The translations under genes were made by a program, and so were the position numbers. The notes below the pieces were generated by a model that was not told where the DNA came from, searched no databases, and worked only from the letters and a program-made list of their open reading frames with translations. A stretch of DNA of 24,755 nucleotides from positions 1 to 24,755 of IMG/VR virus record IMGVR_UViG_3300009618_000128; one strand, written 5' to 3'. Positions 1,219 through 10,810 of this stretch are shown one piece after another; position 1 is the stretch's first letter; each line of letters opens with the position of its first letter. The DNA comes from a virus.

Positions 1219-1518
1219 ATGGTTCGGCACGATGTACCAGTTTGCGAGTGTGATCAATGCGGGCACCGATGGTTGCAAGAGGGCGACAAGCTGCCAGACC
1301 GTTGCCCTAGCCGTTGCCCTAGCCGTAAATGCAGGTCGCTGCGCTGGAATCTGACTCTTATGGGCCAAGTGGTAGAGAAGGCGCGTAAGGTTGGCGCGGT
1401 GGCTGTCCAGATCAACGAGACGGTGATTCCAACCTCTCGATGCGAGAATCCCAAGCACGAGGGCTTCCAGCGCAAAGATGGTTATTGGTGCATGACGTGC
1501 GTTAGGCTTTACCCATGA
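1219..1518 (+). CDS. Zinc-ribbon protein between the terminase subunits
   Basis: The 99-residue protein starts with a probable zinc ribbon: Cys 9, 11 and 14 (CECDQCGHRW), then Cys 29, 33 and 38 ahead of a Trp at 43. The pattern C-x-C-x2-CGH-x-W ... P-x2-C ... W is one I recall from small phage proteins near terminases. A second Cys cluster (75, 91, 94, with His 80) closes the protein. Residues 28-35 read RCPSRCPS, encoded by an exact 12-base tandem duplication, so one Cys of the knuckle is doubled. The gene overlaps the TerL start by four bases (ATGA), implying translational coupling. Nucleic-acid binding during packaging is a reasonable inference, not shown. An HNH nuclease, common at this place, is excluded because no HNH motif is present. 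Confidence 0.7.
   Translation: MVRHDVPVCECDQCGHRWLQEGDKLPDRCPSRCPSRKCRSLRWNLTLMGQVVEKARKVGAVAVQINETVIPTSRCENPKHEGFQRKDGYWCMTCVRLYP
1299..1322 (+). repeat. Exact 12-bp tandem duplication inside the zinc-ribbon gene
   Basis: CCGTTGCCCTAG occurs twice head-to-tail (1299-1310, 1311-1322), followed by a partial third copy CCGT. It keeps the reading frame and adds the residues RCPS in the middle of the Cys knuckle. It looks like a recent slippage duplication. Confidence 0.85.
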
Positions 1519-3095
1519 GCACAGCCGAGCGGATACTTGATCGAATCGCCTCGTTTCGGCGCGATCCTATCGGCTTTGTTAAGTTCGCGTATCCCTGGGG
1601 CGAGCCGGGACCGCTCGAAAATGAGAGCCTGCGCGACTGGCAGGCCGACATATTCATCACCATCGGCAAGCATCTGCGCTCACCGTTTTGCTTTCAACCG
1701 CTCAAAATCGCAGTAGCGTCCGGTCACGGCATCGGCAAGACTGCTGCAATCGCCATGATCTCAGACTGGGCGATGAGCACGTGTGATGACTGCCGGGTGC
1801 TCGTGACGGCCAACACGGAGGATCAGCTCGCAACAAAGACTTGGCCTGAGATGATCAAGTGGTTTGGGTTGAGTATCAACCGCAATTGGTGGCAAATCTC
1901 GGCGACCAGGATTAGCTCCAAGCAGCCGGGGCATGAGAGTACGTGGCGGGTAGACCGGGAGACGTGGAGCGAGAACAATACTGAGGCGTTCCAGGGCCTC
2001 CACAACCGGCGCAAGCGGATTGTGCTGATCTTCGACGAGGGTTCGGCTATCCCCAAGACAGTCTGGGATGTGGCCGAGGGAGCATTGACTGACGAGGACA
2101 CAGAGATTATCTTCCTCGTCTTTGGCAATCCAACGCAAAACGATACGCCGTTCGCTGGCTGCTTCGGAGCGCAAAAGCACCGATGGGTGACCAGGCACAT
2201 TGATTCGCGGACTGTTCCCGGCACCAACAAAGAGCAGATTGATCGCTGGATCATGGACTTCGGCGAGGATTCAGACTTTGTACGTGTCAGGGTTCGCGGC
2301 GAGTTCCCGCGCGCTGGAGGATTGCAGTTCATCCCTCAAGACTTGATTGCGGCTGCCCGTAAGCGGCAATGCGAGCCGTCGGGCTACAAGATCATGAGCG
2401 TCGATGTGGCGCGGTCCGGATTCAATCAGACGGTTGTCGGCTGGCGTCAGGGTCCGGTTGCGCGGATCACGGACAAGTGGCGCGGGCTGCCTATACCGGA
2501 TCAATCCGGCAAAATCGCGCTGCGGATCATGGAGGAGGAGCCGCGCTGCATCATCATCGACGGGGATGGGATCGGCGGGGCGGTAGCGGATCACTTGCGC
2601 ATGATGCTCCCCAAGATCAACCAGCCGCGTCGAGAGTGGCCGGATAACGCTCTGTCGCGCTGGTTCGCATCGCATCCGTGGTTTACAGTGCAGGAGTTCC
2701 ACGGCGGTCAGCCACCGGGCGACAAGTTCATGTATTTCAACAAGCGAGCGGAGGTCTGGGGCAAAGTCAAGAAGTGGCTGGAGACCGGCTCGATTGACGA
2801 TGACCCAGAACTGGAGCGTGATCTGACCGGGCCGCGCTTCGACACCGATAACCCCAAGAGCGTGATTCAGTTAGAGCGCAAAGAGGATATGCGGGATCGG
2901 GGCGTGGACTCACCTGATTGCGGTGATATGCTGGCCATGACTTTCGCGGCTAACCCGATGGCTGAGACGCGGGAGGAAAAGACGCGGCGCGAACAGGCCC
3001 AGATCATAGACCCGATGGAGCTGCACTTCGCTAAACTGAGGGAGACGGAACGGCGGAAAGCGGAGCGCGCGCCACGGCAGTATTGGGACGATTGA
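1515..3095 (+). CDS. terL: Terminase large subunit (TerL): packaging ATPase and nuclease
   Basis: TerL is the motor that pumps DNA into the prohead and cuts it. The 526 residues carry both domains. The ATPase has Walker A ASGHGIGKT (68-76), Walker B VLIFDE (170-175, with D174 and E175) and a coupling motif VFGNPT (202-207). The RNase H-like nuclease has acidic residues at SVDVAR (D297), IIIDGDG (D349, D351) and DCGD (D468, D471). Length and motif order are normal for phage large terminases, closest in style to headful-type Sf6-like enzymes. The ATG overlaps the preceding stop (ATGA), so the start is well supported. No frameshift or inserted element is seen. The last 45 residues are highly charged and may contact the portal. 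Confidence 0.97.
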   Translation: MSTAERILDRIASFRRDPIGFVKFAYPWGEPGPLENESLRDWQADIFITIGKHLRSPFCFQPLKIAVASGHGIGKTAAIAMISDWAMSTCDDCRVLVTANTEDQLATKTWPEMIKWFGLSINRNWWQISATRISSKQPGHESTWRVDRETWSENNTEAFQGLHNRRKRIVLIFDEGSAIPKTVWDVAEGALTDEDTEIIFLVFGNPTQNDTPFAGCFGAQKHRWVTRHIDSRTVPGTNKEQIDRWIMDFGEDSDFVRVRVRGEFPRAGGLQFIPQDLIAAARKRQCEPSGYKIMSVDVARSGFNQTVVGWRQGPVARITDKWRGLPIPDQSGKIALRIMEEEPRCIIIDGDGIGGAVADHLRMMLPKINQPRREWPDNALSRWFASHPWFTVQEFHGGQPPGDKFMYFNKRAEVWGKVKKWLETGSIDDDPELERDLTGPRFDTDNPKSVIQLERKEDMRDRGVDSPDCGDMLAMTFAANPMAETREEKTRREQAQIIDPMELHFAKLRETERRKAERAPRQYWDD

Positions 3096-8431: not shown

Positions 8432-8731
8432 ATGTATCCACAACCGCAACTGGGAATGGAAACCAGCATCTCCAACTACGGAGCCGTAGCAACTCAGGCT
8501 CCTCAACCTTCCGGTATCGCCTCTCGCGTAACCGATCTTCAAAAGGCGGTGTCGGAACTTCAATCACTCACCTATCAGGTCAAGGCCTCGCTCGGAATCG
8601 CGAACCAGGATGTAGAGGCGAAAACTCCTGGGCAACCGGCTTCGCTTGCGGAGGTCTTGACCGACGCGCGGTGTCGGATCACGCGATCCAGCGCGGATTT
8701 GCAGGATGTAATTTCGCACCTAAACTCATAG
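8432..8731 (+). CDS. 99-residue protein between scaffold and capsid, unknown function
   Basis: No family is recognised. The N-terminus is Pro/Gln-rich and disordered (MYPQPQLGMETSISNYGAVA), followed by a helical heptad-like stretch (SRVTDLQKAVSELQSLTYQV, about 31-50) and a C-terminal helix. An AGGAG lies about 12 bases upstream of the ATG. It follows the scaffold-like gene by 50 nt and is the last gene before the non-coding capsid leader. Its location suggests a head accessory or decoration protein, but composition gives no proof. Confidence 0.6.
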   Translation: MYPQPQLGMETSISNYGAVATQAPQPSGIASRVTDLQKAVSELQSLTYQVKASLGIANQDVEAKTPGQPASLAEVLTDARCRITRSSADLQDVISHLNS

Positions 8732-8735
8732 CAAT

Positions 8736-8766
8736 TTGACAGGTGTGCTATGATTTTGCATAGGAT
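8736..8766 (+). promoter_or_regulatory. Candidate capsid-leader promoter
   Basis: A perfect -35 TTGACA (8736-8741) follows the upstream stop by five bases. Candidate -10 boxes are CATAGG (8759-8764, 17-bp spacer, 3/6) and TAGGAT (8761-8766, 19-bp spacer, 4/6). Transcription would start near 8771, exactly at the first helix of the structured leader. The -10 match is modest, so the promoter may be weak or phage-factor dependent. Confidence 0.45.
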
Positions 8767-8769
8767 CAA

Positions 8770-8982
8770 CCGGGCGTCAAAGTGGGACGAATGCCATATT
8801 GCAGCCCCGCCCGTGTAGGTGACTGATTAAAGGTGGCTGACAGCCGGGAAAGACCGGCAATAGCAAGGGTCTGTAGCCCGGAATTCCGAGACCGGTCTAA
8901 ATAGCGGATAGCCTGCCGACCCAAACGAGAGGCACACGCGGGGATACGCTGAGACAGAGCGAATCGCCTAGCTCACGTTTGG
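8770..8982 (+). ncRNA. Structured 5' leader RNA of the major capsid gene
   Basis: The 261 bases between stop 8731 and ATG 8993 have no coding frame worth keeping but many complementary segments. Helices seen are CGGGCG 8771-8776 with CGCCCG 8808-8813; GCCGG 8843-8847 with CCGGC 8854-8858 (loop GAAAGA); GGTCT 8868-8872 with AGACC 8889-8893, enclosing CGG-AATT-CCG; and CCAAACG 8921-8927 with CGTTTGG 8976-8982, enclosing GCG/CGC and AGGC/GCCT. The 5' CCGGGC (8770-8775) can instead pair with GCCCGG (8876-8881), which would exclude the first helix: a possible switch or long-range closing helix. The last helix ends ten bases before the ATG, and the capsid start has only GGATGG instead of a good Shine-Dalgarno. 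A regulatory leader or processed small RNA fits; it matches no family I can name. Confidence 0.55.
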
Positions 8983-8992
8983 ATGGATTGTC

Positions 8993-10396: not shown

Positions 10397-10810
10397 ATGC
10401 AATTTCAGCGCAAGCCATTTCTCGACCGCGTGATCGTGCAGGTTACGCCGATCAAGGAAATCTTTCAGCAGTCCTCCAGCATCGAAATCCCGCTCGACGA
10501 TGAGCGCGTGAAATATCGCTCTGACCGTGGCATTGTCAAAGCCGTGGGCGACGGTGTGGCCATGGCGGGCGTCTTTATCGAGATGCCGGTCCAAGTTGGC
10601 GACGAGGTATTCTTCGATCCTGATACAGCCTATGCTGGGCGTATCTACCTGCTTCCTAGCGATCAGAATCGTTCCGACCTGCCAGAGTATCTGGAGTTGT
10701 ATGTCGGCGATCTGCTGGGGCGCTCTCTGCGCTCTTATGAAAAAAACCCAGCAATCTCAAATGCGCTGGCAGCAGAAGAACTTCGCACTGAACTGGAGAA
10801 AGAGCAGTGA
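10397..10810 (+). CDS. Phage GroES-like co-chaperonin
   Basis: GroES-type proteins form the heptameric lid of GroEL. Phage versions (T4 gp31, RB49 CocO) replace host GroES so that large capsid proteins fold. The 137-residue product aligns by eye with GroES: PFLDRVIVQV (7-16) matches the PLHDRVIVKR start; residues 23-43 are a mobile-loop-like insert with a hydrophobic IEIP where GroES has IVL; DRGIVKAVGDGV (43-54) matches the TRGEVLAVGNG strand; and VQVGDEVFFDP (65-75) matches VKVGDIVIF. About 40 residues extend past the usual C-terminus (charged helix ending LEKEQ). The start is supported by AAAGGAGACAG. It lies 48 nt after the capsid stop, which makes the capsid its obvious client. It overlaps the next gene by four bases (GTGA). 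Confidence 0.85.
   Translation: MQFQRKPFLDRVIVQVTPIKEIFQQSSSIEIPLDDERVKYRSDRGIVKAVGDGVAMAGVFIEMPVQVGDEVFFDPDTAYAGRIYLLPSDQNRSDLPEYLELYVGDLLGRSLRSYEKNPAISNALAAEELRTELEKEQ

Follow-up and report, generated by a model that had tools for sequence, protein, structure and literature searches.

Coat protein of MS2-type phages acts at an operator hairpin adjoining a start codon. Among phage products the major capsid protein is, as a rule, the most abundant, and in tailed phages its control has mostly been attributed to late promoters. In phage T4, inhibitory leader structures are known for gene e, soc, gene 49 and I-TevI; the review that describes them notes that a riboswitch had yet to be characterised in this phage (PMC3014915). 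Here we analysed a 24,755-base virus record (the window, in full) and found that the leader of its putative capsid mRNA appears, with good confidence from sequence comparison and energy modelling, to be a two-state translational switch. One strand (b) would pair either with an upstream decoy (strand a, forming helix P0) or with a strand at the ribosome-binding site (a', forming helix P1). The openly accessible literature that we searched held no description of such a capsid-leader element.

The proposed switch may resemble the MS2 operator in that a coat protein would act at a hairpin by the start codon; MS2, however, is an RNA phage, and its operator is a single small hairpin before the replicase gene, with no bistable partner. 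The T4 leaders of e, soc, 49 and I-TevI share with this leader a phage mRNA helix that closes the Shine-Dalgarno (SD) region and times a late protein, but in T4 the 5' strand is lost through the use of a late promoter, whereas in the window's family a conserved decoy competes for the same strand within one RNA (PMC3014915). The T4 gene 32 operator is likewise structured and precedes a gene whose protein product is abundant, with self-repression as a possible common feature; it differs in its leader pseudoknot, its single-strand binding protein and its lack of an a/b/a' exchange (PMC3014915). Translational riboswitches with anti-sequestor and sequestor likewise open or close the SD by an exchange among three strands, whereas the present leader has no recognised known aptamer and belongs to one gene in one phage family.

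In the window, the genes run from terminase through portal- and scaffold-like genes to the 99-aa gene, after which come the leader and the capsid gene (Table 1). The putative capsid gene was named from its place after these genes and from the call made in the original prediction; searches of its protein against Pfam and PHROG matched no family, and no homologues were found among named phage records. The Cpn10 gene that stands 3' of it recalls T4 gp31 and was present in five of eight related phage records. The leader transcript likely starts near 8761, as judged from the consensus match to TGCTATGAT. A TTGACA box had been noted just upstream and is indeed present (8736-8741), but its reading as a promoter element is doubtful, as it lies 7 nt, not 17, from the best -10.

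Table 1. Features of the capsid locus in the window
Feature	Position	Strand	Description or basis
Terminase large subunit gene	1515-3095		PHROG 2
99-aa gene	8432-8731		
Extended -10-like TGCTATGAT	8746-8754	+	Consensus match only
Optional hairpin E0, GCCGG-GAAAGA-CCGGC	8843-8858	+	In 7 of 29 leaders, just 5' of strand a
Strand a (decoy), GGGTC	8867-8871	+	5' arm of P0; covaries with b in 24 leaders
Hairpin H1 (CCGG 8878-8881 / CCGG 8892-8895), then TCTAAAT	8877-8895	+	Inside P0
Strand b, GACCCAAACG	8918-8927	+	Covariation and energy tests
Core between b and a'	8928-8975	+	Sole R1 match in the window; P2 covariation
A-A mismatch of core	8928/8975		
GAG/CTC of core	8929-8931/8972-8974		
GCACACGC of core	8932-8939		Conserved
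Helix P2	8940-8945/8963-8969 and 8947-8950/8958-8961		Bulged G8966
AG of core	8970-8971		
Strand a', CGTTTGG	8976-8982	+	3' arm of P1; adjoins weak SD GGATGGAT; covaries with b
Putative capsid gene, 451 aa	8993-10348	+	Homologues; proposed to be controlled by the leader
Cpn10 (GroES-like co-chaperonin) gene	10397-10810		3' of the capsid gene

We assessed the leader from the window alone. The plus strand of 8732-8992 contained no convincing gene, the longest ORFs being 22-23 aa, which agrees with its description as non-coding. Its predicted strong structure was near chance here (z -1.67 against dinucleotide shuffles, with 12 of 200 shuffles equally stable) and was borne out only through the homologues. 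The original prediction counted at least five helices; those that it named were present except for one pairing at 8808-8813, and the number of exact helices was at chance level. The frequency of 5-mers with two partners was also that of chance (384 of 1000 shuffles), and no 6-mer in the leader had two perfect partners. The switch had been placed at CCGGGC (8770-8775), with 8808-8813 and 8876-8881 as competing partners. GCCCGG at 8876-8881 is its exact complement, while the letters at 8808-8813 are CGCCCG, which leaves only a 5-bp CGGGC/GCCCG (8771-8775/8809-8813). We rejected this candidate as chance level; the conserved exchange uses a, b and a' instead, so that the general idea of a mutually exclusive fold controlling capsid synthesis gained support but not the switch that had been named. 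The only relatives with the stretch 8770-8775, L001 and L002, are near-identical and hence uninformative for it, and 8762-8840 as a whole has no informative relatives. The predicted 7-bp CCAAACG (8921-8927) does pair with a' and the helix ends ten bases 5' of the capsid ATG, and the capsid start, said to lack a good SD, carries only a weak one (GGAUGGAU). Since the window alone is unremarkable, any claim must rest on its relatives.

We collected capsid homologues from viral contigs and from one Acidobacteriaceae MAG contig (L114), and removal of duplicates left 29 leaders. All 29 had a structured stretch directly 5' of the capsid ATG. Most leaders shared one order, which runs in the 5' half through strand a, a CCGG..CCGG (or CCCG..CGGG) hairpin, a stretch resembling (U)AUAAAU, another hairpin and strand b, and in the 3' half through a GACAY..GC core, P2 (in which a G is bulged on the 3' side), AG/GA-CUYA, a', the SD and the ATG. 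The sequences of a, b and a', assigned by eye, were GGGUC, GACCCAAACG and CGUUUGG in the window, AUUCAGG, CCUGAAUGAAGC and GCUUUAUUCAGG in L050, GAUUCGU, ACGAAUCC and GGAUUC in L019, and GGGAUUC, GAAUCCCAAGCG and CGUUUGGG in L013. A clear P0 was absent from L022 and L051, and P1 was weak in L016, L051 and L055. In the window, strand b pairs with a through GACCC (8918-8922) and with a' through CCAAACG, so P0 and P1 overlap at two bases only (8921-8922). H1 and TCTAAAT of the window are the counterpart of the conserved CCGG..CCGG and (U)AUAAAU of the homologues; by eye, H1 also occurred as CCG/CGG, CCGA/UCGG and CCCG/CGGG, and it was invariant in a 13-sequence covariance-model (CM) alignment (A12). 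About half of the leaders had the motif TGNTATGAT, or one close to it, upstream of strand a, and none of this type was found there in L003, L017 or L053. These are soil phages that probably infect Acidobacteriota, as suggested by the one MAG contig and by the occurrence of remote relatives of the capsid in genomes of its class.

The covariation of both helices was assessed by permutation tests on 24 leaders less than 75% identical, which control relatedness only in part. For P1, the cognate b/a' duplex was at -14.7 kcal/mol versus -10.0 kcal/mol for non-cognate duplexes (z -8.0, 0 of 20000 permutations), and the contiguous-helix test gave z 5.5, compared with -0.7 and -1.7 in downstream control windows. 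The duplex test of P0 (a/b) was weak in wide windows (z -1.8, p 0.04), because long windows admit unrelated helices. A contiguous-helix test in narrower windows, chosen after the wide-window outcome was known, gave z 6.2 (p<=5e-5, the permutation floor); z ranged from -0.8 to 0 in control windows displaced by 20-40 nt and was 3.8-4.3 after 10-nt shifts, which still overlap a. In A12, 16 of 25 pairs showed two-sided changes, P2 pairs among those that covaried, with 39 such cells versus 8.8 after shuffling; 96.7% of cells paired, and none of 500 shuffles reached the observed values. The covariation score was 0.40 versus at most 0.05 for slid partners, whose versions were 28-46% paired. A12 was fitted to the proposed structure, so that its counts lean that way, while the b/a' and a/b permutation tests are independent of it; MAFFT alignments A4, A5 and A8 misregistered the helix strands and were excluded from the counts. 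Covariation over homologues had been set beforehand as the test that the prediction could fail, and strong covariation was found. As P0 and P1 share a strand and each covaries, these results argue strongly that each helix forms at one time or another.

We modelled the energies of the two states by forcing each in 18 leaders, with strands a, b and a' annotated by eye. The P1 state was lower in all 18 full-length leaders, by about 1-13 kcal/mol (window, P1 -55.4 versus P0 -48.3). When the transcript was cut after b, P0 dominated in 17 of 18 leaders with a probability of 0.65-1.00 (window, 1.00), the exception being L050 (0.00). The GGs of the SD were paired in every leader in the P1 state (unpaired 0.00-0.03) and were free at 0.03-0.77 in the P0 state, where those of the window, at 0.04, were still paired. 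The shared part of b was 2-7 bases across leaders, with the window at the low end. The switch is therefore least convincing in the window itself, given its two shared bases and SD GGs that stay paired even with P0 forced. Comparison and energy model together gave a pair of helices that exclude each other, with P1 closing the SD, as is expected of a translational riboswitch.

Based on these data, P0 would form first during transcription and leave the SD region freer (ON); once a' emerges, the more stable P1 would close the SD region and halt capsid translation (OFF). Translational control is a plain consequence of P1 occupying bases beside or inside the SD, and transcription attenuation is not suggested, as by eye no U-run follows P1. 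An RNA that simply times itself, with translation of new mRNA in P0 shut off by refolding to P1 so as to limit the capsids made per transcript with no ligand, would account for the behaviour of nearly all leaders in the energy model, where P0 forms first and P1 is the ground state; we consider it unlikely, since it leaves unexplained the bulged G and the conservation of unpaired core bases (GACAY..GC, AG/GA-CUYA). It is improbable that P0 and P1 coexist in a static folded leader, or serve mRNA stability, without switching: the overlap of only 2-3 bases in window-type leaders would allow this, but in most leaders 4-7 bases overlap, which amounts to full exclusion and includes bases facing the SD.

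The covariance models addressed where the element occurs. R1, a model of the E2 core from which the window, L003, L008, L017, L053 and group B had been left out, matched the window only at 8925-8978 (21.5 bits, E 0.002). Its held-out matches were the window, L003, L008, L017, L053 and L023, and those of the full-length model R3, which include group B, were L050, L052, L056, L003, L026 and L029; all lay directly 5' of a capsid ATG. R3 missed the window, whose E1 part is divergent. All seven records with a match below E 0.01 had a single such copy, at the capsid gene, and an eighth phage record (L047) reached only E 0.7. Under strict filters, a scan of 299 genomes from the same bacterial class with R3 picked out the phage-bearing contig alone. 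Remote relatives of the window's capsid were present in 32 of these 299 genomes (two being close relatives), mostly without the leader. Among the 31 other genomes of the class with such relatives, R1 was run on 19 loci and had no significant match: the distant relatives L126-L143 gave none below E 0.6, and the closer relative L125, also without a match, showed by eye CCTTTCGG/CCGGAAGG at its SD. Matches to a CACGCRCGRA..TCGCGTAGCTCA pattern in L010 and L011 were set aside as, by eye, unrelated coding sequence with no capsid-leader context.

In Rfam 15, neither the window nor 15 homologue loci had a match at the gathering threshold, and the leaders of the window and L021 gave only noise up to E 10. 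These searches bear on the reading of E1 or E2 as an aptamer for a small molecule or ion that signals host state. The layout is that of the expression platform typical of translational riboswitches, and two core domains are conserved, with the unpaired core in E2 and UAUAAAU/H2 in E1 as candidate aptamer cores. Known riboswitch classes recur before many genes, whereas this element was found only before the phage capsid gene and nowhere else in the 299 genomes; together with the lack of a significant Rfam match, this makes a metabolite or ion ligand rather doubtful.

A choice of promoters, as at T4 e and soc, is very unlikely. Under this reading, an RNA that begins at the TATAAAT-like stretch between a and b would have no decoy and be locked off, and one that begins further upstream would carry it; T4 late promoters (TATAAATA) are sited within such structures (PMC3014915), and (U)AUAAAU occurs at this place in most leaders of group A. 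However, the window has TCTAAAT and group B leaders have UUUCUAAAG or UUUCUAUC, no -35 stands at a spacing of 17, and the same bases may be part of an RNA core. An RNA thermometer (fourU) was rejected, as the SD-facing strand contains CC (CCAAACG, GAAUCC, CCUGAAU) and encloses a large core, with no simple UUUU hairpin.

For the two-state switch, the balance is probably set by a binder of the conserved core that P1 encloses (GACAY..GC, AG/GA-CUYA, and P2 including the bulged G). Because this core lies inside the P1 state and a single copy stands before one gene, we favour as ligand a phage protein, in the first place that of the capsid. The likeliest effector would be a phage product, whether capsid protein or an assembly intermediate, and autogenous feedback on the capsid through the leader seems quite possible. 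More tentatively, these leaders may form a new class of RNA switch in tailed phages, in which the state of the capsid or of head assembly is sensed and, by strand exchange between decoy and ribosome-site helix, acts back on the gene for the major capsid protein. The leader switch probably sets the timing or amount of capsid made. With a conserved RNA switch dedicated to this one gene, the control of capsid dosage could be tested directly on about 120-230 nt of leader RNA, in phages whose hosts likely belong to one of the commonest phyla in soil, and the leader is a defined RNA family absent from Rfam that can be used for structural work.

Several leaders carried additional elements. E0, found with a 5' GACA/GGCA flank in its 7 of 29 leaders, has a constant GARAGA hexaloop, and its stems (GCCGG/CCGGC, GCCG/CGGC, GGCCG/CGGCC, CUCG/CGAG) show compensatory changes. 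A B12-box-like AGCCGGAGAGACGGC in L021 raised the idea that E0 resembles a cobalamin riboswitch, which was dropped as Rfam gave no support up to E 10. In L019, a tRNA-like sequence (2804-2872) lies within the capsid leader, between the promoter and strand a; it scored 41.6 bits with the Rfam tRNA model (gathering 29), as the only part of L019 to exceed gathering, and has a shortened anticodon arm with a 4-nt loop. It was called neither by ARAGORN nor by a gathering-mode scan of the whole locus. In E1 of L023, L047, L050 and L051, about 70-115 nt before the ATG, a CCCG..CGGG hairpin has a loop of CGAG or CUC that could pair, by eye, with CUCG or GAG just 3' of it, a possible pseudoknot with partners swapped between leaders.
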